A DNA stretch of 64,000 bases, taken from positions 1-64,000 of the forward strand of contig JANXAL010000015.1 in NCBI GenBank assembly GCA_025062325.1, in the 5' to 3' direction. This DNA comes from Roseiflexus sp. Lineage in GTDB: Bacteria; Chloroflexota; Chloroflexia; Chloroflexales; Roseiflexaceae. A model generated the notes under the pieces. It was not told the origin of the DNA. It searched no databases and saw nothing but the letters and a program-made list of their open reading frames with translations. Shown here in pieces: positions 1 to 57,500 of the stretch (position 1 is the first letter of the stretch; every line of letters begins with the position of its first letter). The translations under genes were made by a program, and so were the position numbers.

Positions 1-1983
1 CTCGGCGGAGCAACCGACACGCTGGCGCGTGAGGCGGCATTGCGCGAAGCAGCCATTCTCCAGGCGGCGCGCGACGAACTCCAGCAGGCGTTCAGCGCCG
101 AGGGACGGCGACATCTGCTGAACCCATTCGCCCCCGCTGCCGAGCGAAACGCTGAGGTCGTCGCTGTGCTGCGCCAGGCAATCGGACAACATCGTGCGCG
201 CGGCGGCCCACTGGCGCGCGTCCCGACCGATGACGAAACCCTGCTGGAAATTTTCGCTGCCACCCTCGGCTGGGGACCAGCGCAACGGTATCTCGACGAT
301 CCGCGCGTCAATGAGGTCAAAATTATCGGTCGGCGCATCCGCGTTCAGGAGAGCGGCAAACCCTTCGTGACCGTTGCGGAACAGTTTGCCACCGCTGCCG
401 AAGTGCGTGATCGCGCGATGCTGCTGGCATCGCTCATGGGCGTGCACCTCGACGCACAGAATCCGCAGGAAACGCTGCCTGCCGACCATGGAACGCGCAT
501 TCACGCAACCATTCCGCCGCGCATCCCGCCCGAAGATGGCGCGCTGATCTGCATCCGGCGCGGTCGGCGCGTCGCGTGGGATTTGAACGATGTTATGCAG
601 CGCGGCACATTCGACCGGCAGGTCTACGATCTGCTGCTGTTGCTGGCGCGGGCGCGCTGTTCCTTCTTGATTGCGGGACGAACGGGCAGCGGCAAGACAG
701 CGCTGCTTGAAGCGCTTGCCAACTCCTGGCCCGGCGATCCTCACATTCTGACGATCGAAGACCATATGCAGGAGATCCACATCCGGCGCGCCGATCTCTG
801 GACGCGCGAACAGGTCAATACCCAGCGCGACCCTGGCGCCTTCGGACGTGTTGCCAGAGAAGCGCTGCGCCAGACGCCCGATCTCCTCTGTCCTGGGGAA
901 ATCCGCGGCAACGAAGCGGGAGCGGTGCTGGCGCTAGTGCTCTCCGACCATCCAGTGATCACCACGCTGCACGCCCGCTCGTGCCGGGAAGCGGTGGAGC
1001 GCTTCGCCAGCTTCGCCGCCATGCCCGGCGCCTATATGTACGAAAACCGCCGCGCTGATGCGCTACGCGATGCCGCCAGCGGTTTCGATGTAGTGATCAA
1101 GCTCGACAACTGGGAAGAACTCGGTCTGCGCCTAATCACCGACATCGCGCTGCTGGACGGCGTTGTCGTGGAAGACGGCGCTCCCCGACCAGCCCTGGTT
1201 CCGCTGGCAAAGGTCGACATTCGCTCTGATGGACGGATTGCCTGGCAGTGCCGGGCAAGCGCCGGAGAAGGCGGTTTGCTGGAATGGCCAGAAGGTGATC
1301 AGACGCCTGCTTCGCTGCGCGAAAAACTGATTCGGGCGCGCGCGCTGGCGCAGGTGCGGCAGCATGCCACGACCCTCGACGCTGTTGCTGATGCCATTGC
1401 GCGCGCACAGACTCATACGCTGGCAGGTGCGCCAGCGCGCGCGCTGGCAGCGCTACGTAGCGCCTGGACGCAACGCCGAGACCCTCGACTGATCGGCGCG
1501 GCGCAGGATGTCCTGGGTCAGGCGCCAGGCATCTTTGCTGATGTCATCGAACAGGCAGGCGCCGAGGGGGCGGCATTGCAGCGCCTCATCGAAGCGAATC
1601 GCTGGCGTGATGCGCGCCTGGCGCTCGACGCAATCATGACCGACCTCGCCATCGCAGCGTATGCCGCGCCGCCAGGCGGCTGGGAAGCGATTGAGACCCG
1701 CATTCGCCAGGGTATTGCCGCTGAAACCGCTGCCGAAGAAGCGCGGATCGAAGCAGAGCGGGCGCTCGAACAGGGGCACGCCCGGCTTGCCGTTGACATG
1801 CTTGCCCGCTTCACTCCATCCAATCTGCCAATTACAATTGCGCTCCCGCTGATCCGTGTGCGCGAACGCGCAATGGAATACCTAGTGCAAGCAGGGCAGG
1901 GGTCCGAAGCTGCGCTCGCAACCGTGCGCGCCCAGCGCCGGGCACTGGAGATGAGCAGCGGATCGGACGCATGCTCGAATTGA
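1..1983 (+). CDS. CpaF/VirB11-like secretion ATPase (5' partial)
   Basis: ATPase of the type II/IV secretion superfamily, expected to be a cytoplasmic hexamer that powers pilus assembly or substrate transport. The frame is open to base 1 and the first in-frame start is a TTG at 40, so the true start probably lies upstream. Counting from that TTG, Walker A GRTGSGKT is at residues 213-220. It is followed by a His-box-like stretch and a Walker B-like GEIRG after PDLLCP. After the ATPase core, from about residue 430, there is an Ala/Arg-rich helical tail of about 200 residues that typical CpaF proteins lack. It heads an operon with TadB/TadC-like proteins (next gene 12 nt away) and VirB4/VirB6-like proteins. 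Family assignment is firm; the exact system is inferred. Confidence 0.88.
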   Translation, partial: LGGATDTLAREAALREAAILQAARDELQQAFSAEGRRHLLNPFAPAAERNAEVVAVLRQAIGQHRARGGPLARVPTDDETLLEIFAATLGWGPAQRYLDDPRVNEVKIIGRRIRVQESGKPFVTVAEQFATAAEVRDRAMLLASLMGVHLDAQNPQETLPADHGTRIHATIPPRIPPEDGALICIRRGRRVAWDLNDVMQRGTFDRQVYDLLLLLARARCSFLIAGRTGSGKTALLEALANSWPGDPHILTIEDHMQEIHIRRADLWTREQVNTQRDPGAFGRVAREALRQTPDLLCPGEIRGNEAGAVLALVLSDHPVITTLHARSCREAVERFASFAAMPGAYMYENRRADALRDAASGFDVVIKLDNWEELGLRLITDIALLDGVVVEDGAPRPALVPLAKVDIRSDGRIAWQCRASAGEGGLLEWPEGDQTPASLREKLIRARALAQVRQHATTLDAVADAIARAQTHTLAGAPARALAALRSAWTQRRDPRLIGAAQDVLGQAPGIFADVIEQAGAEGAALQRLIEANRWRDARLALDAIMTDLAIAAYAAPPGGWEAIETRIRQGIAAETAAEEARIEAERALEQGHARLAVDMLARFTPSNLPITIALPLIRVRERAMEYLVQAGQGSEAALATVRAQRRALEMSSGSDACSN

Positions 1984-1995
1984 AAGGACGTTGGA

Positions 1996-2946
1996 ATGAA
2001 GCCAGACTCAATTATCACACCAACCACAACACACCCCGAAACTGTATGGCTGGCGGATGTTCCGCCGCTGGCGGCAACAATCGCTGCCATCCTGCTGTTG
2101 ACCCTTCTGATGCGCAGCCGGTTGGGCGCAGCGCTCGATGCATATCTTGCGCGGCGGTTCACTCGTCCCGGCGCTGATCGCCTCGACCCTGCGCTGCGCT
2201 GGCATCCTCCAGTAATTGCGGCGTCGCGTCTGCTCGCCATTTGCATCGTCGCCTCCATCACGATCCTGGTTATCGTGAGCCGGATAGGACCGCTGCTTGT
2301 CGCTATCGTGCTGGCAGGACCGGCGACCGCGCTGCTCATCTGGGCGCTGCTCTGGTTTGAAGAGCAGCGCTACGTGAACCGCATCGACGCAGCCCTGCCA
2401 GCGACCGTCGGGCGGCTGGAGGCGCAGTTGCGCGCGGGAAGCGGTCTGCAACCCGCCATCGAGAAGGTCATCGCCGATATGCCTGCCTCACCGCTCAAAG
2501 CCGAGTGGTCGTGGTTCCTGGATCGGCTCGGGCAACCGCTCACTGCCGGATCGCTCGCCACTGCAACGACCGTGTGCGCTGCACTGCGCGCTCAGACGCC
2601 ATCCCGGCGCCACGCCACGTTTCTGAGCCATCTGGAGATCGCCATCGATCAGCCGCATGCCTCACTGGTGCAGCGGGTTCGTGCAGCATATGAAGCTATG
2701 CAGGCATCCGAACGCCGCACCAGTATGCTGGCGACAGAACTCGCTCAAATGCGCAATACCGGAATTGCCCTCTTCCTGATCAATGTCGGTATCGCGCTCT
2801 ACCTGTTCATCGTCCAGCACGAACGGTTTCTGAAGGCATACAGGAGCGATGTAGGCGTTCTTGTAGGAATAGGGCTGGCGCTGGTCGTTAGTGCGCCGCT
2901 CATTGGCGGCTACATGCTGGGACGGGCTGAGGACATCACCTATTGA
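1996..2946 (+). CDS. TadB-like T2SS-F family inner-membrane protein
   Basis: Predicted membrane platform protein (316 aa) of a Tad-like pilus or secretion machine, the usual partner of the CpaF ATPase. There are about five hydrophobic segments: one near residues 18-36, two adjacent ones near 75-115, and a C-terminal pair near 250-310. The cytoplasmic part between them (EEQRYVNRIDAALPATVGRL onward) has the T2SSF-like helical pattern. An AAAGGA ribosome binding site at about 1984 precedes the ATG. It lies 12 nt after the ATPase gene and is followed by a TadC-like gene, which is the Tad order A-B-C. Confidence 0.75.
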   Translation: MKPDSIITPTTTHPETVWLADVPPLAATIAAILLLTLLMRSRLGAALDAYLARRFTRPGADRLDPALRWHPPVIAASRLLAICIVASITILVIVSRIGPLLVAIVLAGPATALLIWALLWFEEQRYVNRIDAALPATVGRLEAQLRAGSGLQPAIEKVIADMPASPLKAEWSWFLDRLGQPLTAGSLATATTVCAALRAQTPSRRHATFLSHLEIAIDQPHASLVQRVRAAYEAMQASERRTSMLATELAQMRNTGIALFLINVGIALYLFIVQHERFLKAYRSDVGVLVGIGLALVVSAPLIGGYMLGRAEDITY

Positions 2947-2966
2947 TACCACCAGAGAGGCGTTCA

Positions 2967-3758
2967 ATGATCGATATTTTCATTGTATCGGGCGTCTGGA
3001 CGGCTTTCGTCGGCATCGCTGGCGTCCTGATCGCCGTGATTGGCATGGCGCAACTCGAACATGCGCGCGCGTTGGCAAGCGGGTTACGCACCCTGCCATC
3101 CCGCTGGGGGATGACCGGTCGGTTTGTACTGGGACACCTTGCGGCGCTGCCGCTCGCATCGGCGATTGTCCTGCTCATTGTATCTGCAGGGATTGACGGC
3201 GCGCTGCGCCTGCTCCTTGCAACCGTCGCATTTGCCATTTACCTGTATGTCGGCGTAATCATCCCGCGTAAACCGGTTACTGCCCGGCAGCGGGAACAGA
3301 AACGGCTGCGGCGTTTGACTCCGTCATTTGTCGCGTATGTGCGTGTAGCGCTCGCCGGATATGACCCTCCTCCGGCGCTCCTCGAGCGCTACCTGATGCG
3401 CCCTGATGACAAACATGCACCGATGCAGCGCGTCGTGGCTGATGCGCTGCGCCTGGTGCGCGATCACAGCGTGTTGCCGTTCGACGCACTGCGGCGCGTG
3501 GCGCGCGATCGGGGATGCCCTGAGTTGATCGACATCGCCGAGGCGCTGGCACAGGCCGAAGCAGAAGGTTCCGACCCGCACACCGTGTTGCTGGCGCAAG
3601 AGACGACGCTCAATCAAGTGCTCCACGATGAGTTCCGTCAGATGATCGAGCGGCGCAAACTCTACTTGCTCGCGCTTGCAGCCCTGGCAGTTGTCGGTGT
3701 GCTGGTGCAGATCATCTTCGTGATTGTGATGGGCAGCAACGTGATGGGACGCTTCTGA
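2967..3758 (+). CDS. TadC-like T2SS-F family membrane protein
   Basis: Second predicted membrane platform protein (263 aa), paired with the TadB-like gene. The ATG at 2967 is chosen because AGAGAGG sits 6 nt upstream; an in-frame TTG at 2943 would overlap the previous gene without a binding site. Hydrophobic segments lie near residues 3-25, 55-100 and 235-260. The region between carries the T2SSF-like sequence ALRRVARDRGCPELIDIAEA, which resembles the conserved helix in TadB/TadC. TadB/TadC pairs normally act with CpaF. Here the following genes are VirB-like instead of flp, rcpA or tadD, which is unusual. Confidence 0.72.
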   Translation: MIDIFIVSGVWTAFVGIAGVLIAVIGMAQLEHARALASGLRTLPSRWGMTGRFVLGHLAALPLASAIVLLIVSAGIDGALRLLLATVAFAIYLYVGVIIPRKPVTARQREQKRLRRLTPSFVAYVRVALAGYDPPPALLERYLMRPDDKHAPMQRVVADALRLVRDHSVLPFDALRRVARDRGCPELIDIAEALAQAEAEGSDPHTVLLAQETTLNQVLHDEFRQMIERRKLYLLALAALAVVGVLVQIIFVIVMGSNVMGRF

Positions 3759-3773
3759 ACCGGGGATTGAGCG

Positions 3774-4472
3774 ATGAAACCGTTTCGCCGCAACCGCTCG
3801 CGCCGCCGGGGTAAGCCGTTGAAGAAGAGCGCACAGCAACAGAGCGCGACTCATGCGCCGACGGCCAGTGATCGAGCGCTGTGCTGGCTGCTTGCCCGTC
3901 CGTCGCTCGATTGGTTACTGACCGCTGCGCTGCGCTATCCACGCATGCTGATGACCGCTGCCCTCGGCGTTGGCGCAGCGCTGGCAATCTGGCACATTGG
4001 CGCACTGCAGCCTGCGCCCGCAGACACGCCAAGTTTGATGCGCATCCCTAATGTGTCTGCGCCAGCAACATCGACTCCAGCAACGACAATCGCCGACGAT
4101 GTCGTGCAGTTTCTGGCAGCGTATAACCAGGCGAGCGCGCTGGCGGCGGCGCGGGGACAGGCGGCGTTGCTCGAACCCTACCTGGCGCCTGACAGTCCTG
4201 CCTGGCAGTCGGTGGCAGCGGAGTATGCACGGCGCGCCAGCGTCGGTGAGCGCCGCGACGCCTCCTTGGTGCGGTGGGGCGTTTTGCAGGGCGACATAAC
4301 CTCCGCCGGAGGCTGGGTCGATACCCAAGAGCAGTGGGATGTCGCCATTACCGTCGGCGGACGCATCGTCAGCAGCAGACGTGGCGTCCTGACGCGCAAT
4401 AGGTACTGGCTGCGCCGGGACGCTGATGGCTGGCGGATCGTCGATGCAGCGACAACCGAGGTGATCCGATGA
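3774..4472 (+). CDS. Single-pass membrane protein, VirB8/TcpC-like by position
   Basis: A 232-aa protein with a very basic N terminus, one transmembrane helix near residues 58-80, a short linker, and an extracytoplasmic domain of about 130 residues. The domain (AYNQASALAAARGQ... to ...YWLRRDADGWRIVDAAT) has the feel of an NTF2-like fold: an alpha-helical start, then strands ending in a Trp-rich WRI(V)D motif. VirB8 and TcpC of type IV secretion systems have this architecture and sit beside VirB6, as here. The domain assignment is my reading and needs a profile search. Its stop overlaps the next start (ATGA). Confidence 0.5.
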   Translation: MKPFRRNRSRRRGKPLKKSAQQQSATHAPTASDRALCWLLARPSLDWLLTAALRYPRMLMTAALGVGAALAIWHIGALQPAPADTPSLMRIPNVSAPATSTPATTIADDVVQFLAAYNQASALAAARGQAALLEPYLAPDSPAWQSVAAEYARRASVGERRDASLVRWGVLQGDITSAGGWVDTQEQWDVAITVGGRIVSSRRGVLTRNRYWLRRDADGWRIVDAATTEVIR

Positions 4473-6790: not shown

Positions 6791-9642
6791 TGAGCGAGAG
6801 TGAACCGCAATCCGCAGCGCCATCACTGGCGCGAGACATCGCAGATGGCGCTGCGCGGCTGGCGGCGCGCCAGGCGGCAAAGCGCGCACTTGCAGCAGGC
6901 GGCAAGGCAGCCCTGAAGATTGGCGCCGTGGCCAGCGGCAAGGTCATCCTCATTGCAGCGCTGGTCGTTCTGGCAATCGTTCTGATCTGTGGTCTGGCAC
7001 TGGTGATCGCGGGCGCGCTTGGCACGATCTTTCAACACACAGCGCTCCCCTGGCCTGTGGCGCCGGACGTGCAACCCGACGGAACCTACCGCGCAGGCGG
7101 GTGGGCTATCTCCAGTCGCTTCGGCTGGCGCACGCATCCGGTCACTGGCCAGCCAGAGTTCCACGACGGCATCGACATTATCAGCCCGACTGGCGCGTGT
7201 CCCTTTGCGTATCGCTGTCTGCTCCCTGCCATGGTCGATGGTGTGGTCACCTATGTGGGGTGGGACGTGAACGGTGGACGCCATCCCGACCAGGAAGGCG
7301 GCGGGCAAATTATTGTGGTCGAAAGCAGCCGCGGCGCCTATCAGACGATCTATGCTCACCTGGAACCGTATCGTCTGCACGTGCAACTGCAAGGGCGGAT
7401 CATCGATGAGTACGGTCGTTACGACGAGTATGCCGATTACCAGCCGATCGGCGCCGGTGAACTCGTTCCCGACGTTGCCGACGGATCGATTGCTATCTCG
7501 TGTCAGGGCGATATGCCAACGTTTGCGCCGACGCGCAGCGGCGCGACGATCACGTTTCTCTACGACCGCCCCGCTAACTGTCGAACCACAGTGACGTGGG
7601 GGAAGCGCGGCGACGGCTGGCGCGGCTGGATCGCCGACGATCCGCCCGCAAACGCGCAGGGACAGGCGACGCTACGCTGGCAGACGCCGCTCCATGGCTC
7701 ACGCGGTGATCGCCGCGCCGGTGATGTGGCATTGCGCTTCCGCGCTCACCTCGTGCCGCCGCCACCCCCACCAACCCCGACCTCGATGCCGGTTGCACTA
7801 ACACCAGCAGCACATGCGCCCAGAATGACGCGGATGGTCCAGGCAGCGCAACCGGATGATCTGAACAGAAATCGGGACAGCCAAGCCTCGGCATGCCACT
7901 TGACCGGCGATGGCGGGCGCTGTGTGTGGCGGTTGGCGGATATTCCGGTTGCGCCTCGTCAGGACGCCTTCTGGAATAGGGGGTATGGAATGGGAAGTCT
8001 GCAACGCGCGTCTCACGCGACGTCTTTTGCTGCCCACGGCATTTCATCCTCCTCCAGTCCGACGCCGCAGCACAGCGCCCCATCATTTCTTTCCGCCAGC
8101 ATGAGCACGGTTGGATCCTACCAACTGCCGGTTGGCGGGCGCCGCCGGATTGCGTTTGTTGGCATAAGCAGCAACTGGCCCCTCGTCATCGAAGCGGATG
8201 CGGGCGAGCATCTGACTGTGCTGGACGTGACCCACGTCTCTAGCGGCGTGCAATGCTCATCGACCGCGCGCAGCGTGCGTTGCGATGCGCACGGACCGCA
8301 GGCGTTCTCGGTCGAGTTCGTGGTAGAGGTGCGCGCTAGCGCGCCGATGAACAGCATCCAGACCTTGCACGGCACGGTCCGTTCGCCGGTGCGCCAGACC
8401 ACCGCGACGCTTAACCTTCTTATCGATCCCTATGCCGTTACTCCCGGACCCTGGCCCCCGCCGACCCCCTTCCCCACAGCGACGCTGGCGCCGTATCCGC
8501 CGCCAGCGATTGCGACGGTTCCACCTCTTCCGCCGGAGATTATTCTCCCGGGGGTGACACCCATAGCCGGACCTCCGCCAGGACCGGGACAGGGACCAGG
8601 GCAATCGCCGCTGGCATGCCGACCGCAGGCGCTCGTGCCGTTGCCAGGTGTTATCAACGCCGCAGGAAACACAGCGAATATGGCGCTAGCGGAAGATGCA
8701 GCGCGCAGTTTTGCCGCTGTGCGCGCCGAGATCGCTATGGCAACCGGGCAGGACCCGCTGGCGCGCCTGGCGGATGCGCTGCGCACGCCGGAGTTTCGCT
8801 CGAGCAAGCCGGGGGTGGCGCTGATGTCGTGGCATATGACGGGAAGAGCAATTGATGTGGACACCAGCTTTCCCTGGCGACGGCTGCGCGACGGTCGAAT
8901 GTGGCGACTGTATATCAACACGACCGATATAACTGCCATCTTTGAGCGCCACGGCTGGAACCGCATTCCAGATCGCGCCGATTCACAGGAGTGGTGGCAC
9001 TATGAATATCACCCGAATGGCATTAGTTGGGCAAGCGCTATGCGCGAAGTCTGGCCCCTCCAGCGTTTGCAGGCAGCGTTTCCACAGATCAACTGGATCA
9101 GCGTTGGTTGTCAGCCGATGTCGCCGGATGGCGCCACGCCGCCACCCAGTGACACGCATGAACGCTGTGTGGCGGGCGCCCCCGCGTTTGCGCATGCCGT
9201 CGAAGCATTACCCGGCTGCGGTCCGCCAGTGCGTCTAGGGGATCGGGTGTATCAACTGGAGTCACCGTTGGGATTCGTCGGACTGACCGGGCAAACAACT
9301 GGACCGCACCTGCACCTGGGCGTGCGGCAGCGCGGATATGCAGGCGATTTCCCGATGATCAATGTCTGCACGCCGGAGTGGTTGCAGGGCATTCAGCCAT
9401 TGCCCGGCACGAACTGCTGGACGGACATGGTCGATCCGCTGGCATTCCTGCCGCTAGCGCCGCCGGACAATCTCGCTGGGCTGCCGGAGGGCGCTCCATA
9501 CCAGTTGCCGCCGCCAGATTATCCCGGTTCGCTCTACCGTGATCCGCGTCCTGGCGAACCACCAGTCGGTCAGTACTGGTCGCCCGACGCCGACGGCGGA
9601 CGGTATGGCGGCGGTAATCCGGGGCGGTCAGCATCACGGTGA
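6790..9642 (+). CDS. Peptidoglycan hydrolase: M23 peptidase with nested M15 (VanY-like) peptidase
   Basis: 950-aa cell-wall hydrolase, probably the VirB1-like enzyme that opens peptidoglycan for the machine. A transmembrane helix lies near residues 50-80. The M23 (LytM) domain is split. The first half holds HDGID (H125, D129) and YAHL (H190). The second half, from about residue 800, holds GPHLHLGV (H840, H842). Between them are beta-rich and Pro-rich segments and a D,D-carboxypeptidase of family M15: WHMTGRAIDVD (H682, D689) and EWWHYEYH (E734, H737). All zinc ligands of both enzymes are visible, so both may be active. The ATG overlaps the upstream stop. A Pro/Gly-rich tail follows the second M23 half. 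Confidence 0.85.
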   Translation: MSESEPQSAAPSLARDIADGAARLAARQAAKRALAAGGKAALKIGAVASGKVILIAALVVLAIVLICGLALVIAGALGTIFQHTALPWPVAPDVQPDGTYRAGGWAISSRFGWRTHPVTGQPEFHDGIDIISPTGACPFAYRCLLPAMVDGVVTYVGWDVNGGRHPDQEGGGQIIVVESSRGAYQTIYAHLEPYRLHVQLQGRIIDEYGRYDEYADYQPIGAGELVPDVADGSIAISCQGDMPTFAPTRSGATITFLYDRPANCRTTVTWGKRGDGWRGWIADDPPANAQGQATLRWQTPLHGSRGDRRAGDVALRFRAHLVPPPPPPTPTSMPVALTPAAHAPRMTRMVQAAQPDDLNRNRDSQASACHLTGDGGRCVWRLADIPVAPRQDAFWNRGYGMGSLQRASHATSFAAHGISSSSSPTPQHSAPSFLSASMSTVGSYQLPVGGRRRIAFVGISSNWPLVIEADAGEHLTVLDVTHVSSGVQCSSTARSVRCDAHGPQAFSVEFVVEVRASAPMNSIQTLHGTVRSPVRQTTATLNLLIDPYAVTPGPWPPPTPFPTATLAPYPPPAIATVPPLPPEIILPGVTPIAGPPPGPGQGPGQSPLACRPQALVPLPGVINAAGNTANMALAEDAARSFAAVRAEIAMATGQDPLARLADALRTPEFRSSKPGVALMSWHMTGRAIDVDTSFPWRRLRDGRMWRLYINTTDITAIFERHGWNRIPDRADSQEWWHYEYHPNGISWASAMREVWPLQRLQAAFPQINWISVGCQPMSPDGATPPPSDTHERCVAGAPAFAHAVEALPGCGPPVRLGDRVYQLESPLGFVGLTGQTTGPHLHLGVRQRGYAGDFPMINVCTPEWLQGIQPLPGTNCWTDMVDPLAFLPLAPPDNLAGLPEGAPYQLPPPDYPGSLYRDPRPGEPPVGQYWSPDADGGRYGGGNPGRSASR

Positions 9643-11093: not shown

Positions 11094-12947
11094 ATGTCGC
11101 TACGAGACGCTCTCTCCCGGCCGATTATTGAGCCGATACGCCGCCGCACGGCTGATGTGACGTTCTTTACCGGCGCCACAACGCTACCGACACTGCTAGC
11201 GCCCGACGGGATCGACAGGCGCTGGAGTCATATGGTGCAGGTGGGCGACTCGTTTATCACCGCGCTGGAGGTGCGCGCATTCCCGCCAGCGCTTGCGCTG
11301 GCGTGGCTCGATGATCCGGCGTTAGGTCTGGATGGCGCGGGCATCACGGTGCATCAGCACCTGGTTCCTATCCCCGACGCGCTCGCCCGTCGCTGGCTGG
11401 CGCGCAGCGAAGATGCGGCGCTTGGCACGCTGGCTGGCGACGCACAGGCGGGCACGCACTTCGACGCCGAAGCGCAGCAAGGCATTGAAGCAGCAGCAGC
11501 GCTGCGCCACGATCTGACCGCCGGAACAGATCGTTTATTCCAGATAGCGATCACAATCACGGTTGCAGCGGCCACTCCCGAGGAACTGGCAGCGCGCGTC
11601 GACCGGGTACGGCTTGCTGCCGCCCAGCGGGGCATCCTGCTGGGCAGTATGCAATTTCAACAGTGGGAAGGGTATCTCGATGCCCTGCCGCTGGGACGAA
11701 CCCCCGCCGGACTGTTGCACGACGCCAGCGGGCGCGCCGCTGCGATGGGCATGCCCACAGCGTCGCCAGGCCTGACGCGGCGCGGCGGTTTGCCGATTGT
11801 CTGGGGAGAACACCCGCGCAGCGGCGCGCCCGTCGTGTATGATCGCTGGCAGGCGACCAATCCGCATATGCTCATTGTCGCTGAGTCGGGGAGCGGTAAA
11901 ACGTACACCATGGGCGGGTTGCTGGCGCAAGAACTGGCGCTCGGCGAGGATGCGCTGCTCATTCTCGACCCGAAGCGTCAGGAGTATCGCGCACTGACGA
12001 TGGCGCTTGGCGGAGCGTACATTTCGCTCTCAAGCCGCGCCGGGTACCACATCAATCCGCTGGAACTGCCGCCGCTCGCGCCCGAACGTGCGCGCACCGT
12101 TGCAGCCCTGGAAGAAGACCTGCTGGCGCAGCGGATCAGTGTCATCAAGGCCTTGATCACCCGCGAGCTGAAGGCACAGGGCACCCATGTCGATGCAACC
12201 GGCGCAGCCGCGATCCAGGACGCCATTGCCGCAGCCTATGCTGCACGCGGCATCAGCAGCGATCCGCGCACATTCATGCAGCCAATGCCGACCTTTAGCG
12301 ACGTGCAGCAGCGCCTGGCGGAGATTGCGCCCGACCTGGCGCGCGCAATGGCGCTGTTCACGCGCGGCATTATCGGTGATCTGTTCAACCATCCGTCGAA
12401 TGTGCCGACCGATAACCCGTTGCTGGCGATCGATCTCTGGACATTGCTCCAGAGCAACGACGAAACCCTGGCGCGCCTCTTGCCGGTAATCGTGATGGAT
12501 TTTTTCGTCACCACTGCGATCAATCGTCCGACTGGGCGACGCAGCCACCTGGTGCTCGACGAGGCGCACGCGCTGCTGCACTCGGAAGCGGGCGCCCGCA
12601 CCCTGCAGATGATATTCCGCATCGGGCGCAGCCTTCAGTTCAAAGCAACCGTTATCACTCAGAGCCTCGACGATCTGGACGAGAGTGAACAAACGCGCGT
12701 GTTACTGGAAAATGCGCGCACCAAACTCATTCTGGGGCTGAACCAGGACTCAGATGCGGTCAACCGGGCAGCCGCCATTTTACGGCTGAACGATGAGGAA
12801 GCGGCGTATCTGGCGACATGCCGGATCGAGCGCGGCATCGGCGCAACGGCGTTGCTGCTGGCTGATGGGGAACGCACGCCACTGTTCATTCCACGATGGC
12901 CCGACGCAATCCATCGGATTGTGACCGGCGCAGGGAGCGAGCGATGA
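11094..12947 (+). CDS. VirB4/TraG-type type IV secretion ATPase
   Basis: 617-aa ATPase of the HerA/VirB4 superfamily that energises type IV secretion or conjugation machines at the cytoplasmic membrane. Walker A ESGSGKT is at residues 264-270 and Walker B HLVLDEAH has D489-E490. The motif LILDPKRQEY, typical of VirB4/TraC, lies between them. The C-terminal ARTKLILGLNQDSDAVNRAA also fits. The first 240 residues are the usual non-ATPase part, shorter than in full VirB4; the missing piece may be the upstream 223-aa protein. The stop overlaps the next ATG (ATGA). Confidence 0.88.
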   Translation: MSLRDALSRPIIEPIRRRTADVTFFTGATTLPTLLAPDGIDRRWSHMVQVGDSFITALEVRAFPPALALAWLDDPALGLDGAGITVHQHLVPIPDALARRWLARSEDAALGTLAGDAQAGTHFDAEAQQGIEAAAALRHDLTAGTDRLFQIAITITVAAATPEELAARVDRVRLAAAQRGILLGSMQFQQWEGYLDALPLGRTPAGLLHDASGRAAAMGMPTASPGLTRRGGLPIVWGEHPRSGAPVVYDRWQATNPHMLIVAESGSGKTYTMGGLLAQELALGEDALLILDPKRQEYRALTMALGGAYISLSSRAGYHINPLELPPLAPERARTVAALEEDLLAQRISVIKALITRELKAQGTHVDATGAAAIQDAIAAAYAARGISSDPRTFMQPMPTFSDVQQRLAEIAPDLARAMALFTRGIIGDLFNHPSNVPTDNPLLAIDLWTLLQSNDETLARLLPVIVMDFFVTTAINRPTGRRSHLVLDEAHALLHSEAGARTLQMIFRIGRSLQFKATVITQSLDDLDESEQTRVLLENARTKLILGLNQDSDAVNRAAAILRLNDEEAAYLATCRIERGIGATALLLADGERTPLFIPRWPDAIHRIVTGAGSER

Positions 12948-14242
12948 TTATTGCCGGGTATCGTATCAATCTGGACGCGCTGCTGGCGCGCGTCGTTTAT
13001 CGCTGGCATTGGAAGATCGCGCTCGCTGTAGTTGCCGCCGGAGCACTGATCGGCATTGCGAGCGGTGTCATTCCTCCCTTCTGGCGCGGTCGCGCTAACC
13101 TCCAGGTGCGGGCTGCGCCAGAGGCGCGCATCACAATTGATGGACGCCCCTGGAGTGGCGACGTGTATGCGGGCGAGCATACCGTCGCTGCGACTCTGCC
13201 GGATGGACGACGCTCCTGGGTGCGCCTGACGCTGCAACCGGGAGAAACGGTCGCGCTCGATCTTCCGCCTGGACTGCTGCTGCCAAAGACGCATCGGGTG
13301 CCGTCCGCCGCTCCCGGCATGCGGCTCACAGCAATCTGGCGCGCCGGTGACTCGTGGCGCGTGCAAAGCGTTGCTCCGCCGCCTGTGGAGACCAGTGCAA
13401 AAGACGCCGGGGAGGATATGCCGGCAACACACACTATTGCTATTGGTACGTCAGGGATCGAGCGATTGACCACGATCGACGCCTACCGCGGGCGCGCTGA
13501 TGTGCTGACCGTCGATGGCACACGCTACGAGGCGGCGTATGAGCCGGCTCAGCCGGGCAGCCGCCAGGAGAGCAGGATTATCGTGCGCGGCTGGGAGCAT
13601 ATGACTGTCACGGTTGTCGGGGATGTATCACTCGTGAGATTTGCGCCGGACGGTCAGGCGCTGTTGCTGGCGGAACGCACAGTGGCTGGCGAACACGTCC
13701 GGTACCTCACGCCAGATGCGTCGCCAGTCGCAGTCGTTGCGCTTCCCGGCGAGATCACTGGGGTTGCCTGGCATCCGTCGGGTAACGCAGTGCTGATCGC
13801 CAGTCGCGACGGCACGCGACGCGCTCTGACCCTGGCGCGCCTGCGTCCAACGCCGGTTGCAGCGGTCGTTGCCGAGCCTGCCGCCGACGGATTGCCCCCT
13901 TATGCCTGGAGCAGCAATGAGCTGGTATGGATTACGCCAGACGACGCGGGAAGACCACAGATGTGGCGCGCCAGCCTCGACACACTGCTTCCCGAACGCC
14001 AGATGCCGCTTGAGGCGCGGGCAATCATGCGACTGGCGGATGGTACGCTTCGCGTTGTGTTGCTCCGGGATGGTGAAGTCATCATTGGTCGTCTGGACGG
14101 TGAACGGTTCATCGGCGAAACGACGATAGCAGGAGTGCCAGCGCGCGCAGACCTGGCTGGCGAATGGTATGGGAACGAGCTGCTGCTCCGAAGCGGGAAT
14201 GACGCCTGGTTGATCACCATCGTAGAAGGAGAAGGCAGATGA
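12944..14242 (+). CDS. Membrane-anchored PEGA plus beta-propeller-like protein
   Basis: 432-aa protein whose ATG at 12944 overlaps the VirB4 stop; a longer frame from 12896 is a shadow. A cytoplasmic start is followed by one helix (about residues 28-48), a PEGA-like surface domain (about 55-105, with ITIDGRPW and AGEHTVAATLPDG) and a region with TolB/WD40-like repeats (FAPDGQALLLA, WHPSGNAVLIASRDG). It is probably extracytoplasmic and may bind cell-wall material or another surface part of the machine. Not a known VirB subunit. The next gene overlaps by ATGA. Confidence 0.62.
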   Translation: MIIAGYRINLDALLARVVYRWHWKIALAVVAAGALIGIASGVIPPFWRGRANLQVRAAPEARITIDGRPWSGDVYAGEHTVAATLPDGRRSWVRLTLQPGETVALDLPPGLLLPKTHRVPSAAPGMRLTAIWRAGDSWRVQSVAPPPVETSAKDAGEDMPATHTIAIGTSGIERLTTIDAYRGRADVLTVDGTRYEAAYEPAQPGSRQESRIIVRGWEHMTVTVVGDVSLVRFAPDGQALLLAERTVAGEHVRYLTPDASPVAVVALPGEITGVAWHPSGNAVLIASRDGTRRALTLARLRPTPVAAVVAEPAADGLPPYAWSSNELVWITPDDAGRPQMWRASLDTLLPERQMPLEARAIMRLADGTLRVVLLRDGEVIIGRLDGERFIGETTIAGVPARADLAGEWYGNELLLRSGNDAWLITIVEGEGR

Positions 14243-16146
14243 GCGCACCGCGGATCGAAACACTGCTGGTCAGTCTTGTTGTGCTGATTGCTACCGGGAT
14301 CGCGCTGGCAGCAGCATACGCTCCCCCCATTCCCCGGCACCTGCGGGCAGGAGCGACTCAGGAGGCGTTGCGCAAAACGAGAGACGCATCGACTGCGCCG
14401 CATCTCCGGCAGCATAGCGACGATCGCGCAACCGCACCCGACGCAGTATCGTGGATCACTGATGCCGCCGCCCGGCAGATCGCCGGTATTGACGCTTACA
14501 GACAGATCGCTGCGCCTCTCATGAGCGGCATCGTGGCGTTGATGCTAGCGATTATCGGAGTGCGGCGCAGGCAACGCACGACTCCGGCACAGCAATCCAT
14601 CCCTCTACGGGAACCAGTCGTGAGCGCTCGACGCCGGAACACCATTGCACGAGATATTTCACATATGTGGACAAACTCCATGCATCGCGTAGCAATGTTC
14701 CCTAGCGCATATCGGAGAGCGCTGGGCCAGATCGAGGTTTTCGCGCGGTTCTGGAAGTGGAGAGCCGCAAGGGATCCACGTTCTGGCGGTTCCCTGCATC
14801 GTCTTATCCGTTTCAGACATCAGCGCGCCCCGGCGCTCTCCTTTCCGCTTGTGGAGGCAGGAGAGCAGGGAGATCTTACGGGATCGGGCTCTTTGGACAC
14901 GCTTCTCAGTCATATTGCCCGTTTTGGGCATCAGGACGACCGACCTTCCCCTTCTCCGCTTATGGAAGAAGAGAAGCCGGAGGATGAAGGAAAAAAGGCG
15001 TCGGATTGCGAAAAACACGCTGCTCCACCGGAGAACGCGGAAGAGGGCCAACCCAATGACCAGGCAGCCGACAATCGTTGGGTAATAGCAGCGTTGCAAC
15101 CATCCAATGCGCGACCCGAACCCGACGCCGCAGAAGTTCATCAATCCGTTACGACCGACAACGCTGCGGCAGCAGTTGCTGCCGTCCTGGACATTTACAA
15201 ACAACGGGGATTGGCGCAAAGTGAGGTCGTGTTTGCCGAGGCGAGCGCTGAGCGCCAGCAGGCGCAGGTGCGCCTGACAGTCATCGCCCACCCGGACGAA
15301 GCCAGGGCGCTTGAGGATCTGCCCGCACAGGTGGAGATGACCTTACCCGGATCCAAGGCGCAGTGGCAACGTACTATGCGAGCGCAGTCAGTGCTGACAA
15401 TCACTATGCACAGAGATATTCCTGCGAAGCAGGGCAGTCATCTGCTTCTGCCGGTTGCGCGCCATCAATCAGGTTCACGCCTGCCCATCATCAACCGCAG
15501 TGCGCCAGCAGTCTCATTTCTGCCGCTGCACACCTGGCGCCATGTCGGGTTCTGCGGCGGCAAAGCCATCGAAAGCGCCAGTGCTGCACTTATCGACCTG
15601 TTGTACGTTGAGGCGCCGAATGCGCTCGCCGTGACCATCATCGACCAGGGACAGATCAGTTCATTCTGCAAAGGAATGCCGCACGTTGTGCCGCTGCCCG
15701 GCGAGGCGGCGGATTCGTTGATTGCTCTTGGACGCGCTGCCCGTTCCTGTTCGTTCTCTGGCGCGACAATGCGGCCGCTGTTGATCATTATCGTGGAGCC
15801 AAGCGCGACGCTGCTGAGCATATATGATGATCTTACCGCTCGCCTGCTGCGGCGCCCAGGCGCGCCGGTATATACCATGCTGGTGCAGTCTCATCTGCCG
15901 AATGGCGCACGACGACCGCATCCCTCCTTTCCCGTTGTTATCACCAGTGGCGGAACAGCGCCATCGACAGGTGCAGGTTATGCGCTTCCACCAGAAACGG
16001 TGCGAATTCTTACTCGGCACATCCGCCTTGAACGCCAATGCTATGCCTACGATGCAACGCGTCTAGCAGCGCTGACCGCGCTGCTGCGCGTCAGTACTGC
16101 TGAACCGCTTCTCCCGACGGCATGGGACGCTCTGGGCATATCTTGA
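14239..16146 (+). CDS. FtsK/VirD4-like membrane protein with degenerate ATPase motifs
   Basis: 635-aa protein with two N-terminal helices (about residues 8-30 and 88-107), a low-complexity linker and a C-terminal FtsK-like domain. The domain keeps the FtsK order: an approach strand HVGFCGGKA, a long helix, an AVTIIDQ strand and a second strand LLIIIVEP. The P-loop is broken: the first Gly is missing and the Ser/Thr after K442 is A443. Walker B D-E is replaced by E520-P521. It is therefore likely an ATPase-dead relative of TcpA/VirD4 coupling proteins, perhaps a structural receptor. Residues about 169-264 are encoded by antisense copies of a dispersed repeat. Confidence 0.6.
   Translation: MSAPRIETLLVSLVVLIATGIALAAAYAPPIPRHLRAGATQEALRKTRDASTAPHLRQHSDDRATAPDAVSWITDAAARQIAGIDAYRQIAAPLMSGIVALMLAIIGVRRRQRTTPAQQSIPLREPVVSARRRNTIARDISHMWTNSMHRVAMFPSAYRRALGQIEVFARFWKWRAARDPRSGGSLHRLIRFRHQRAPALSFPLVEAGEQGDLTGSGSLDTLLSHIARFGHQDDRPSPSPLMEEEKPEDEGKKASDCEKHAAPPENAEEGQPNDQAADNRWVIAALQPSNARPEPDAAEVHQSVTTDNAAAAVAAVLDIYKQRGLAQSEVVFAEASAERQQAQVRLTVIAHPDEARALEDLPAQVEMTLPGSKAQWQRTMRAQSVLTITMHRDIPAKQGSHLLLPVARHQSGSRLPIINRSAPAVSFLPLHTWRHVGFCGGKAIESASAALIDLLYVEAPNALAVTIIDQGQISSFCKGMPHVVPLPGEAADSLIALGRAARSCSFSGATMRPLLIIIVEPSATLLSIYDDLTARLLRRPGAPVYTMLVQSHLPNGARRPHPSFPVVITSGGTAPSTGAGYALPPETVRILTRHIRLERQCYAYDATRLAALTALLRVSTAEPLLPTAWDALGIS
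14760..15025 (-). repeat. Two antisense copies of the 'CCCCCTTCTCCC' dispersed element inside a gene
   Basis: Read on the minus strand, 15020-14905 aligns by eye with the element seen at 43801-43905 and 33965-34075: GACGCC, a T-run, TTCATCCT, a pyrimidine-rich stretch, GCGGAGAAGGGG, then GTCCTGATGCC.AAAACGGG. A second copy lies at about 14875-14765, with CCCTGCTCTCCTGCC, GCGGAAAGG, CTGATGTCTGAAACGG and GGAACCGCC. Both are diverged, and the host reading frame remains open. Confidence 0.6.
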
Positions 16147-23584: not shown

Positions 23585-23818
23585 CATCCTCTTGCCGCTC
23601 ATGTTCCCGTTGGCGCGCGGGCGTCGCACCCGCGTGAGCAATTCCGTTTTAGGCGGCTGGCGGAACCATCACCCGCCATAGTGAAGCTGCTCGATCAACT
23701 GCTCTTGACGGTTGATCCTGAACATGGTACAAACGGGCTATCACACGTCACTCCGCGCATGCCGAACATGTGTTAGAATGTCTACACGATTTCGTGCTCA
23801 TATTCAGTGAGCGCCCGT

Positions 23819-25000
23819 ATGTCTAGCCTGACCTTCTACGAATTCTTCGCTGGCGGCGGCCTTGCGCGGATCGGTCTAGGACCGCAGTGGACCTGCCTGT
23901 TTGCCAACGACATCGACGACAAGAAAGCGGAGACGTACCGACGCAACTTCTCCGGCGCGCCGGAGCTGGTCGTTGCGGATATTCATCGCGTGACGACGGA
24001 TATGCTTCCGGGTCGTGCGCTGCTCGCGTGGGCGTCGTTCCCCTGTCAGGATCTGTCGCTCGCGGGGAAAGGCGGCGGGCTGCGCGCCGGGCGCAGCGGC
24101 ACGTTCTGGCCATTCTGGGACCTGATCACTGCACTTGACCTCGAGGGGCGCGCAGTGCCCATCATTGCTATCGAAAACGTCGTTGGTCTGCTCACCTCGA
24201 ACAAAGGACACGATTTTCACGAGTTGGTCGCTGTCATTGCCGCGCAGGGATATCGTCTGGGAGCGATGGTTATTGACGCTGTGCATTTCGTTCCTCAGTC
24301 GCGGCCACGGCTCTTCATCGTTGCAGTCAAGGATGACGCGACAATACCGGATGCATTGATCACGCCCACGCCGCACGCAGTATGGCATCCGGTCTCGATT
24401 GTTCGCGCCTATCGTCATCTCGCGCCGCCTCTACGCGACTCATGGGTTTGGTGGAACCTTCCTTCGCCTGAACGGGCGCCGCTTCACCTGCGCGATGTGA
24501 TCGACCCTGCGCCGACAGGCGTCGCCTGGCATAGCCCCGAAGAAACGCAGCGCCTTCTGTCGCTGATGTCCCCGGTTAATCTTGCCAAAGTGCGTCACGC
24601 GCAGTTAACCGGTCGTTTGCACATTGGAACGATCTACAAGCGAACGCGCATTCAGGATGGAGTCAAGCGCCAGCGCGCGGAAGTGCGGTTCGATGGCGTC
24701 AGCGGGTGTTTGCGGACGCCGGCTGGCGGTTCGAGCCGGCAGACAATTCTGGTGGTCGAGGGGGACGTCGTCCGCTCGCGACTGCTTTCGGTGCGCGAAG
24801 CGGCGCGGTTGATGGGCTTGCCCGACAGTTACTGGTTGCCTGAACGCTACAATGATGGGTATCATGTGATGGGTGATGCGGTTGTCGTGCCAGTCGTTTC
24901 GTGGCTGGAGCAACATATTCTTCGTCCGCTGGCGACATCTATTGTACAAACCAGGGAGGTCCCCGTTCATGTCAGCGCGTCAACCGGTTATTCTCTGTGA
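23819..25000 (+). CDS. DNA (cytosine-5-)-methyltransferase
   Basis: C5-cytosine DNA methyltransferase of a type II restriction-modification system (393 aa from ATG 23819; GTG 23807 is an alternative and neither has a good binding site). Motif I FYEFFAGGGLARIGL is at the N terminus, motif IV catalytic FPCQDLSLAGKGGG has C76, motif VI is ENV (about 119-121), motif VIII is QSRPR, and the variable target recognition region is followed by motifs IX-X (LSVREAARLMGLPDSY, GDAVVVPV). The endonuclease gene overlaps its 3' end and vsr follows. Recognition sequence cannot be read from the protein. Confidence 0.95.
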   Translation: MSSLTFYEFFAGGGLARIGLGPQWTCLFANDIDDKKAETYRRNFSGAPELVVADIHRVTTDMLPGRALLAWASFPCQDLSLAGKGGGLRAGRSGTFWPFWDLITALDLEGRAVPIIAIENVVGLLTSNKGHDFHELVAVIAAQGYRLGAMVIDAVHFVPQSRPRLFIVAVKDDATIPDALITPTPHAVWHPVSIVRAYRHLAPPLRDSWVWWNLPSPERAPLHLRDVIDPAPTGVAWHSPEETQRLLSLMSPVNLAKVRHAQLTGRLHIGTIYKRTRIQDGVKRQRAEVRFDGVSGCLRTPAGGSSRQTILVVEGDVVRSRLLSVREAARLMGLPDSYWLPERYNDGYHVMGDAVVVPVVSWLEQHILRPLATSIVQTREVPVHVSASTGYSL

Positions 25001-51204: not shown

Positions 51205-52461
51205 ATGACAGTCGCAATCAACACATCTATTCGCTCTCCGAACTACGGATCGCGTAGGGGTCGATCCATTTCGATGATTGTGCTCCACGCGACAGCAGGC
51301 TCGGCGCGCAGCGCGCTAGCGTGGTTGACCAACCCGGCAGCGCGTGTCTCGGCGCACTATCTGATCGACAAGGCGGGGCAGATCTATCGTCTCGTCCCCG
51401 ACGAGTATGCCGCCTGGCATGCCGGGCGCGCCGAATGGCGCGGCGAGACGGCGATCAATGAAATATCGCTCGGTATTGAGCTTGAGAATGCCAACAACGG
51501 CCACGATCCCTACCCAATGGCGCAACTGAACGCGCTCGTCGATCTTACGCGCGAAAAAGTCGCGCAGTATCGCATCGCGCCCGACATGGTCGTGCGGCAT
51601 CTAGATATTGCGATCCCGCGAGGTCGCAAAAATGATCCTGCTGGCTTTCCCTGGGTTGAGTTCCTGCGCCGTATCTTTCCCGATCCTCCTGTTACCGTAC
51701 CGGAACGTCCAATGCCGCCAGCCAGGCGCGCCACCTTCAGCCAGATCCTGCTCAGCGAAGCATACCGCCAGGTTGGCGCAGTCGAATGGCCCGACTGGGC
51801 GATGACTCGCACAGCGCGCGTGACAGGGCTTGGATTGCCGGTCGCTCCCTCATTCGAGGTGACCGTCGCGGGGCGCAACTACATCGGGCAATCGTTCGGG
51901 CGCGAGACGCTGGTCAGCCCGATTGCCGAATGGAAGCGCGTCGACCGGTTGAGTATGCTGGCTGCGCCAGAACATCAACCGCTGCGCGAGGCGTTGTTGC
52001 AGGCGATCTATGCCCAAGCCGGCGAGACCTATCGCCCGGATTGGGCTTTTCATCAGTATGCGCTGCGCGAACCGGTCGGACCGCCGTTGAGCGCCAGTTT
52101 TCGGGTGCGGGTTGGCGCTGAGGAGTGGTCAGCGGCGATCTACGCACTCGATGTGTTGTACAGTCCGGTCGGTCGCTGGAAAGAGATCCATCATCTCAGC
52201 ACCTTGATCGACGAGCGCAGCGAGCGCGATCCGCTGGCGCAGGCGTTGCTGGAACGGCTCTATGAACGGGCAGGCAGCCAATGGCGACCGATGTGGCCCT
52301 CCCAGCAATACGCACTCCGCGAGCGCCTGGGAGCGCCGCTGGGACCGAGTTTTCGGGTGTCATTCGATGGCCGCGATTATGTGGCAGAGGCCTTTGCACT
52401 TGATGTGCTCTATTGTGTGATTGGTGAATGGGAGAACGTGCAGCGACTGAGAGATCTGTGA
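51205..52461 (+). CDS. N-acetylmuramoyl-L-alanine amidase with three C-terminal repeats
   Basis: 418-aa protein. Residues 1-165 form an Amidase_2/PGRP-type domain: zinc ligands H28, H132 and D144, with E91/E93 as possible catalytic support and the family sequence AHYLIDKAGQIYRLV. Residues about 178-418 are three similar repeats of about 80 residues, each with a 'PxWA' start, PxxPSF(R/E)V, a short beta hairpin and a WK.hxxLS-type end. They are probably cell-wall or carbohydrate-binding. No signal peptide is visible, so export or a cytoplasmic recycling role remains open. Confidence 0.85.
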   Translation: MTVAINTSIRSPNYGSRRGRSISMIVLHATAGSARSALAWLTNPAARVSAHYLIDKAGQIYRLVPDEYAAWHAGRAEWRGETAINEISLGIELENANNGHDPYPMAQLNALVDLTREKVAQYRIAPDMVVRHLDIAIPRGRKNDPAGFPWVEFLRRIFPDPPVTVPERPMPPARRATFSQILLSEAYRQVGAVEWPDWAMTRTARVTGLGLPVAPSFEVTVAGRNYIGQSFGRETLVSPIAEWKRVDRLSMLAAPEHQPLREALLQAIYAQAGETYRPDWAFHQYALREPVGPPLSASFRVRVGAEEWSAAIYALDVLYSPVGRWKEIHHLSTLIDERSERDPLAQALLERLYERAGSQWRPMWPSQQYALRERLGAPLGPSFRVSFDGRDYVAEAFALDVLYCVIGEWENVQRLRDL

Positions 52462-54528: not shown

Positions 54529-54577
54529 CGCACGTTTCCCGGGTGCGCTGCCGGACGAACCAGTGGCGAGGGAATAT

Positions 54578-57500
54578 ATGGCAGTACAACTCGCTGGTTG
54601 GGTGCATAGGTATCTCGAAGCCCTCTGTGCACAGCCGCATTTTAGCGCCGCGCGGACGGTCGCACCGCTCTGGCTGGCATCCGACGCCGGTCATTCCTCT
54701 GAGACGGGAACGCCAATCTCTGCGCCGATGACTATTCAAATGGCGGCAGAAATCTTTCCGCGCCTGGCGCTGATCGGTCCGGCAGGCGCCGGAAAAACGA
54801 CGACCCTGCGCGCACTGGCGGTTGGTCTAGCAGAGGCGTTCCTTTCCGGCAACAGCCGCATGGTATGGAGCAGCGCCAACGCGCCGCTTCCGCTCTATCT
54901 CGAACTTGCCCGCTTCCAGGGGAGTATTGAAGCGACCCTGACGGCAGCGTTCGGGATCGGAGCGCCACCGCCGCTCGACGAACTGGCACGTGAGCGTCCG
55001 CTCCTCTTCCTGCTTGACGGACTGGACGAACTACCGCCAGCTTCGCAACTGACCAGCCTGGCGGCGCTGAGCCATGCTCTGGCGGCAACCGGCGCTCAGA
55101 CGCGCTGGATCTGCACGTGTCGCAGCGAGCACCTGGGGTTGTTCCGCCCCTGGTTGAACGGCGCCGAGGTGCGCACGTTGCAACCGCTCCGTCCGCGCGA
55201 CGTGATTGCCCAGGTGCAGCGTCAGATTGGCGATGTAGCGGCTGCCTGGGTGCAACGGAATGACGACATTGTTCATCTGGCGACCTGTCCGCGCTGGCTC
55301 GCTGCGCTCATCGAAGCGCGCGACGCGCTGACCGCGCCGATCCAGAGCCGCGGACAGCTCCTGGCGACCTGGATGCCCGCTATTGTAACGGCGGCGCTAA
55401 CGGCGCACCCACGCCAGATCACGGCATCACAGGCGGTGGATGCCCTGATCGATATCGCCCGCCTGCTCGATCAGCAAGGACAAGACAATCTCTCCTTCGA
55501 CAGCGCAATCACCGCTGTCGAAGTCAGCGCCTATGCACCCGACATGCACCTCACCACTGGCACGCTGCGTCAGCCAGCGCCGATACATGGGCAGACCTTG
55601 CGCGCCGCAACCGGCGAAGCCGCGCTGCTGGCGCTCATCGACGCTGGCATTCTCACCTTTGACGCTGAACGACGCACGATTGGCTTTCGACATCCCATAC
55701 TGCGCTCGTTTGCCCAGGCGTTGCTGCTGGCGCGCATCCGACCTGATCAGTGGCCTTCCGCCATTCTGAGCCGCGCCTGGACGGACGCCGTGATCTTCGC
55801 CTACGGCCTGTCCGAGGATCGCAATGCTGTGGTGCGGCGCCTGCTGGCGGCTGGCGCGGTCGGATTGACAGCGCGCTGCCTGATTGATGCCGAGGATCCT
55901 GCCCACTACGATGAGCTGCTTGAGCGGAGCGGCTCGCTGACGCCGCCGTTGCGCGTGATGATCGCCGATGCCTTTGCGGCGGAAGGGCTGGATCGCGCGG
56001 CGCTGGAGCAACTGGAGCGCGCTGGCAACGAAGGGTACGACGAAGCCGGACTCTTCGGGCGCCTGGGCGATCTCTACAGCCGCTCCGGTCAGTGGCGGCT
56101 GGCGCGCGTAGCTTATGAGCAGGCGCTGGCGCGTGAAGCCGATGATCTGCGCTACCGCCAGCAACTCGGCGTTGTGTGCAGCCGAATGGGTGAGCTGGAA
56201 CAGGCGGCGGCGGCGCTGGAAACCGTGCTCGATGCGCAGCAAAAGCGTTCGGCAGCCGCCGCGCACGAACTGGGACACGTCTACCTGCAACAGGGGCGCT
56301 TTGCGCGCGCGCTGGAGGCATATCGCCATGCGGTGCAGCAACAGCCTGGCGAACCAACGTACCGGCGCAGCATGGCAGCCGCGCTGCGCCGCCTGGGACG
56401 CCTTGACGAGGCGGAAGCAGAACTGTGCGATCTGATCGCTGCGTCTGGCGGCGATGCGGCAACGTATGCGGAACTCGGCGAGGTCTACGCCGATGCCAGC
56501 CGCTTCACGGAAGCAGTTGAACGTTATGCCCGCGCTGTTGCGCTCCGCCCCGACGACCCGACCCTGTATGCGCGTCTGGGGCAGTTGCGCCGCAACATCG
56601 GCGATCTGCCAGGGGCGCGGGCTGCGCTGCAACAAGCAGTCGAACTCAATTCCTCAAACGCGGCGCTGCAGGACGAGTTAGGACAGGTGCTCGAAGCGTG
56701 CGGCGAGATGGAGAGCGCGCTGGCGGCATACCGTGCGGCTGTCTCGCTCGATCCGCAGTGCGCCGCGTATCACCGACGCCTGGGAGCGCTCCTGCGCGAT
56801 TGCGGCGACTACGACGGCGCCGCAGCAGCGCTGCGCACTGCGCTCGAGCTGCGACCAGACAGCGCCGAGACCTATAGCGAACTGGCGGAGTTGTTATGGC
56901 GCGCTGGCGCTACCGAACAGGCGCTCGACGCTTACCGTCGCGCATACGCACTCGCTCCGGACTCACCTGATCACGCGCGCGCGCTGGGACTGGCCTACCG
57001 CCGCCTTGGGCGCGCGCGCGACGCCGAGCGCCTGTTGCGCGAGGCGCTGGCGCTGGCGCCGGATCGCGCCGATCTCCATTATGACTATGGCGTGGCTGCC
57101 GAAGCCCTCGAGCAATGGGATACAGCGCTTGCGGCTTACGAACAGGCGGCGGCGCTCGACCCGCAACGCGCCGATTATGCGCGCGCTGCCGGTGCGCTCC
57201 TTCTGCGCCGCGGCGACCTGGCGCGGGCGCGTCGGTTGCTAGCGGCTGCTCTGCGCCGCGCCCGTCGTGATCCTGAAACTCTGTTCCAGGTAGGAATGCT
57301 CCACGCTGCCGCTGGGGACTGGCATCTGGCAGCGCGATCCTTTCAACGCGCCGCACGTTCGAGCGGCAGTGCGCGACACGAAAGCGCACTGGGCAGGGCA
57401 TATCTGCATCTCGGTATGGCGAATGAAGCCTGCACGGCTTTCGAGCGCGCACTTCTCCTGTACCCTGATGACGCTGAAACACTTGAGGCCTATCAATCTG

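Follow-up and report, generated by a model that had tools for sequence, protein, structure and literature searches.

Gram-positive T4SS use membrane-anchored, multi-domain hydrolases of the VirB1 type (PMC12857230). One of these, PrgK, contains LytM, muramidase, and CHAP domains, of which the LytM and CHAP domains are described as regulatory, and the LytM part may be non-catalytic in some VirB1-like hydrolases (PMC12857230). The locus described here lies in a 64,000-nucleotide stretch of Roseiflexus sp. DNA, which is referred to as the window. It encodes, within an export operon, an M23 domain that carries an M15-bearing insert and that is conserved and under selection (Table 1).

Table 1. Features of the operon and of the nested M23/M15 protein, with positions in the window
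Feature	Position (nt)	Strand	Evidence
T2SSE (TadA/VirB11-type) ATPase	40..1983	+	Pfam T2SSE 2.2e-25; synteny
Two membrane proteins of 316 and 271 aa that resemble TadB/TadC in position and appearance	1996..3758	+	No Pfam match above cut-off; synteny
TrbL/VirB6-like membrane protein, 773 aa	4469..6790	+	Pfam TrbL 0.0054, below cut-off; synteny
Nested M23/M15 protein, ORF of 950 aa	6790..9642	+	Orthologues in Roseiflexus
Predicted membrane anchor, residues about 52-80	6943..7029	+	Long run of hydrophobic residues; helix at 50-80 in the first, weak model
M23 N-half (M23-N), residues 106-196, with H125, D129, and H190	7105..7377	+	Own M23 profile; Pfam
Insert between the M23 halves, 617 residues (197-813)	7378..9228	+	Flanking profile matches adjoin at position 80
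Beta-rich (Ig-like) module 1, residues about 231-323	7480..7758	+	Conservation and predicted strands
Ig-like module 2, residues about 431-548	8080..8433	+	Pilin/adhesin Ig-like structure matches, Z up to 15.8
M15 (VanY-like) domain, residues 609-770, with H682, D689, E734, and H737	8614..9099	+	Motif and profile comparison
M23 C-half (M23-C), residues 814-892, with H840 and H842	9229..9465	+	Own M23 profile; Pfam
Conserved C-terminal tail, residues 893-950, QLPPP...GQYWSP	9466..9639	+	Conservation; dN/dS 0.06
VirB4/TraG-type ATPase, 617 aa	11094..12947	+	Pfam P-loop_TraG 6.8e-13; synteny, tree

The Pfam M23 model (PF01551) matched the nested protein with 38.3 bits against a cut-off of 28.7, and the match fell into two stretches, which flank an M15_4 match below its threshold. 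When the two pieces were scanned apart, residues 91-197 corresponded to positions 2-55 of the 96 profile positions, and residues 804-897 to positions 57-92. A second profile, which we built from 27 contiguous M23 homologues, aligned its positions 7-80 with residues 106-196 (E 6e-14) and its positions 80-116 with residues 814-851 (E 1e-7). Because both matches meet at profile position 80, the halves border on each other at a single point of the fold, and the residues between them constitute an insert, which contains two beta-rich (Ig-like) modules, proline-rich linkers, and the M15 domain. In ordinary M23 domains, the insertion point falls after the YxHL strand and before the segment that leads to HxH. 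As judged from the sequence, the match of the two pieces to complementary parts of the profile is far beyond chance. The preliminary description had proposed an M15 peptidase nested inside a split M23 peptidase, and the complementary M23 pieces that flank M15 confirmed this arrangement. The part of the protein outside the N-terminal anchor region is predicted to lie outside the membrane.

The ligands HxxxD, H, and HxH are present in this order in the nested protein and were aligned with those of the 27 contiguous M23 domains. All nine predicted catalytic and zinc residues, which had been assigned in the preliminary description to the same positions as in Table 1, were the same in the window protein as in all five orthologues compared (53-87% identity). 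Every ligand column was uniform in unguided MAFFT alignments with the 27 contiguous M23 domains and 14 viral M15-like domains, and likewise in the alignment used for folding (A6), which included 12 of the M15-like domains. The dN/dS ratios among four close Roseiflexus sequences were 0.09 for M23-N, 0.08 for M15, and 0.09 for M23-C, indicating that both M23 halves are constrained as strongly as M15. The ratios among the same sequences were 0.42 for the first linker, 0.28 for the short spacer before M23-C, and 0.13 for the proline-rich linker before M15.

A first AlphaFold2 model, calculated from six orthologues only, had a mean pLDDT of 36 and was unusable. A second model was calculated for residues 86-904 using a 45-row alignment that included contiguous M23 homologues, and its mean pLDDT was 64.5, with 94-97 in the core blocks of M15, about 80-86 in M23-C, and about 53-83 in M23-N, so that the confidence for M23-N is only moderate. 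The comparison by VIA-align matched this model with the LytM domain of DipM (7qrl_C; Z 14.8, 128 residues, 2.3 A, 31% identity), ShyA (6ue4_B; Z 13.8, 130 residues), 3slu_B and 6muk (Z 13.3 each), and the zinc peptidase 2gu1 (Z 13.0). The M23 structure matches span model residues 1-806 (start at 1, end at 804-806), a range that gives the first and last matched residues only. Since 128-130 aligned residues extend from model residue 1 to residues 804-806, one half alone would be insufficient, and the halves appear to pack together. In the model, both M23 halves thus form one LytM fold, a packing that the contiguous M23 domains in the alignment would favour. With this proviso, the proposed check by structure prediction gave the expected result, and a model in which the two halves fail to form one fold, named beforehand as a refuting outcome, did not occur. 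The Foldseek rows against the PDB were dominated by the Ig-like module, and M23 structures surfaced through VIA-align only. The M15 region was modelled confidently; the Ig-like module filled the list, and the rows shown included no M15 structure, which does not in itself speak against M15. The earlier proposal of a domain insertion with all ligands retained is supported by sequence, selection, and the structure model, and the nested architecture, with M15 inside one M23 domain, is well supported.

Three small genes lie between the gene for the nested protein and that for the VirB4/TraG-type ATPase, and two more genes follow the latter. The operon also encodes a 232-aa membrane protein, which is VirB8-like by guess only. 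The gene order was kept in L021, L024, L025, and L085-L088, and partly in L083. No relaxase or transfer substrate was found among the operon proteins scanned. What had been called a secretion operon is a real operon, but it is a T4SS/Tad-like hybrid whose function as a T4SS or in conjugation is putative. Operon proteins of 448 and 635 aa, encoded at 12896-16146 (+), gave no Pfam match above the cut-off; the former showed weak WD40-type matches, and the latter reads like a degenerate ATPase. Elsewhere in the window are genes for a C-5 cytosine-specific DNA methylase (23807-25000, +), for a 418-aa N-acetylmuramoyl-L-alanine amidase (Amidase_2; 51205-52461, +), which is a second kind of wall hydrolase and lies outside the operon, and for a 2266-aa STAND-like protein that combines a NACHT-type NTPase domain with a very long TPR array (54563-61363, +).

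Matches to the nested protein were detected in 14 of 82 Chloroflexales genomes, including all six Roseiflexus genomes and two weakly matching ones in which M15 alone is shared. In a 400-genome sample of the phylum, the matches outside Chloroflexales were only weak and at the level of single domains; close relatives were found only in Chloroflexales. The relatives occur in three states. In Roseiflexus and G009, one gene encodes all ligands. In G007 and G013, one gene encodes an intact M15 motif and the M23 ligands are lost, and the one-gene form of G010 (contig C351) lacks the first His of HxH. In G010 (contig C702; L083) and G057 (L081), two genes occupy the same place in the operon. The missing C-half in G073 was set aside, since the contig enters unrelated AT-rich sequence after M15.

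The two-gene form is absent from the preliminary description. The product of its gene A carries a membrane anchor and contains the M23 N-half, with HEG[IL]D and YGHL, as well as a beta module, which corresponds to module 1 of the nested protein, and a proline-rich tail. The gene B product has a signal peptide of its own, and its further parts are a linker, M15, the M23 C-half containing HLH, and the tail; in G057, the linker includes a DUF11 domain at the place that corresponds to Ig-like module 2. Beta module 1 is followed by a proline-rich linker within the insert, and it is in this linker that the two genes are broken apart. The stop of gene A in L083 is at 4312 and the start of gene B at 4330; the two open frames of L081 are separated by about 400 bases that contain stops in every frame. 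The two-gene form is not attributed to a frameshift or an assembly error, because two divergent loci show a stop, a second start, and a signal peptide. A scan of the two-gene loci with the M23 profile detected no contiguous M23 domain. In a tree of VirB4 proteins, the one-gene and two-gene operons formed two sister clades with full support. No nested form was found around distant Chloroflexota VirB4 genes, where the scan gave one contiguous M23 match (G439, L181), so that there is no outgroup for polarity.

The G010 bin (contigs C702, C115, C351, and C304) contains one-gene and two-gene operons together, and its two-gene operon groups with another family in the VirB4 tree, which points to transfer or bin contamination. 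In contig C147 of G057, about 10 kb of other sequence lies between gene B and the VirB4 gene, as if inserted at the gene end. The 3' end of gene B is duplicated there about 2.5 kb downstream (L081, 6291-6417 and 8816-8942; 128 bases, 87% DNA identity), and the duplicated segment encodes 41 aa that are 98% identical to the tail of gene B of G010.

Because a segment of 77 residues such as M23-C would hardly be an M23 peptidase alone, joint assembly of the products of genes A and B is the simplest reading of the two-gene form. The M23 zinc site would then be completed in trans from an anchored N-half and a secreted M15/C-half, wall opening would be switched on only where both meet, and the nested chain of Roseiflexus would be a fused version of the same device. 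We hold this proposal tentatively, at slightly less than even odds. The two-gene loci might instead be decaying remnants in which the leftover M23 halves of A and B never meet, as frameshifted or deleted remnants of gene B in G028 and G063 attest to loss within the same family and the complete two-gene loci numbered just two, of which one comes from a MAG with a one-gene operon as well. Decay is nevertheless somewhat unlikely: the two loci are divergent (80% identity between their gene B products) and keep every M23 and M15 ligand, they have their own signal peptides, their dN/dS ratios are low over both halves (0.04-0.09 for M23-N and 0.12 for M23-C, with 0.10 for M15), and the two-gene operons constitute a fully supported clade of their own.

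No relative with a lost M15 motif was found, though some lose M23 ligands. The loss of M23 ligands with retention of the M15 motif indicates that the enzymatic function of M23 can be dispensed with, and the pattern suggests that M15 is indispensable; M15 is the retained part, and M23 can degenerate into a scaffold. It had also been anticipated that homologues might carry M15 as a plain C-terminal domain with a complete M23 elsewhere; proteins that lack M23 and carry M15 at their C-terminus do exist, but the operons examined yielded no complete M23. The losses in G007 and G013 and the partial loss in G010:C351 raise the alternative that M23 is nothing more than a folded scaffold or a wall-binding module, its ligands serving zinc-stabilised folding or wall binding, and that M15 is the sole active enzyme. 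The LytM domain of PrgK, described as regulatory, and inactive VirB1 homologues, proposed as adhesins, provide parallels. This alternative is unlikely, since the five M23 ligands are invariant in Roseiflexus, in G009, and in both complete two-gene loci, the dN/dS ratios of the M23 halves are as low as that of M15, and HxH includes the presumed catalytic base, which would be superfluous in a purely structural site.

The middle domain appears to be a divergent, VanY-like M15 domain. The residues of its SxHxxGxAxD and ExWH motifs were invariant in 12 relatives, including a short secreted form (L084), a multi-domain form with SH3-like domains (L091), and propeller-carrying forms (L092 and L093). 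In the latter two, which are from Roseiflexus relatives, TolB-like propeller repeats are followed by the same M15 subfamily (L092, 227-1969; L093, 2626-4506). The score with Pfam M15_4, which is one of several M15 models, was 16-19 bits and remained below the curated cut-off of 25. A profile comparison of eight orthologues with six VanY-family proteins of related genomes gave a probability of 95% over both motifs; wider sets gave 89-90% over the first motif, and M15_4 proteins of the same order gave a probability of 0.6-49%. A sequence search of the PDB with the M15 profile yielded nothing useful, a phage collection contained no match to M15, and a plasmid collection gave one M23-like match only. 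That the domain is another small metal-binding fold with a chance motif, as the M15_4 scores, the lack of a solved structure found by sequence, and the structure rows filled by one module without an M15 structure might suggest, is very improbable in view of the complete motif kept in all 12 relatives, the VanY comparison across both motifs, and the motif columns shared uniformly with viral M15-like proteins.

In summary, we assign a probability of roughly 0.68 to the reading that the nested protein is an anchored wall hydrolase of a T4SS/Tad-like machine, in which an Ig-like/M15 module has been inserted in a loop of M23, with assembly from two genes in the sister clade and with M15 as the retained part. 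Under this reading, Ig-like domains and the M15 module would have been inserted into one M23 loop, and the M23 halves at both ends of the chain would fold into one zinc site, as in the model. The anchored protein would sit at the export machine, where M15, tethered at both ends, could reach out by means of flexible linkers. By analogy with their families, M15 may trim or cut stem peptides and M23 may cut cross-links, and the two together would probably open a gap in the wall locally for the export machine; such dual activity, already proposed in the preliminary description, is a prediction. In the sister clade, the insert is broken into two genes, and the M23 site there could assemble only if the anchored half were joined by the half that is exported separately.

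Wall hydrolases endanger the cell that produces them, and their action has to be limited to the right place and moment. An M23 domain able to accommodate a hydrolase-bearing insert of 617 residues, and seemingly occurring in nature as a pair of complementing gene products, would exemplify a split-enzyme design for safety and would offer a natural split M23 for study. The nested protein is also a candidate wall-opening factor for a little-studied export machine of Chloroflexota. Cryo-tomography of Roseiflexus castenholzii suggests that its thin peptidoglycan layer is exposed, that an outer membrane is absent, and that channels cross the septa (PMC7332563).

The M23 domains of DipM (LytM, 7qrl), ShyA (6ue4), NMB0315 (3slu), and the Vibrio zinc peptidase (2gu1) have the same pattern of HxxxD, H, and HxH, and they share the fold that the domain adopts in the model, with about 31-35% identity over 128-130 aligned residues. 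However, the known M23 domains are contiguous, whereas the nested protein has 617 residues and a second hydrolase between the YxHL strand and HxH, and some relatives encode the halves as separate proteins. Searches of the open-access literature brought up no account of an M23 domain that is nested or split, which is weak evidence of novelty. The nested M15 shares the SxHxxGxAxD and ExWH motifs with VanY and other M15 peptidases; unlike VanY, it belongs to a divergent subfamily below the M15_4 cut-off and is located inside another peptidase. PrgK (pCF10), TraG (pIP501), and Orf14 (Tn916) are membrane-anchored with several extracellular wall-acting domains and are encoded together with VirB4- and VirB6-like genes. 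The nested protein would resemble them in these respects: its anchor is predicted from the sequence, and its operon has a clear VirB4-like gene and a TrbL/VirB6 match below the cut-off. A scan of the nested protein for SLT, muramidase, and CHAP domains gave no Pfam match. A VirB1-like role in wall opening may be considered by analogy, and with respect to the Gram-positive VirB1-like hydrolases, the nested protein would be at most an analogue: in PrgK, TraG, and Orf14, the domains are other enzymes arranged in tandem, whereas in the protein described here they are nested.
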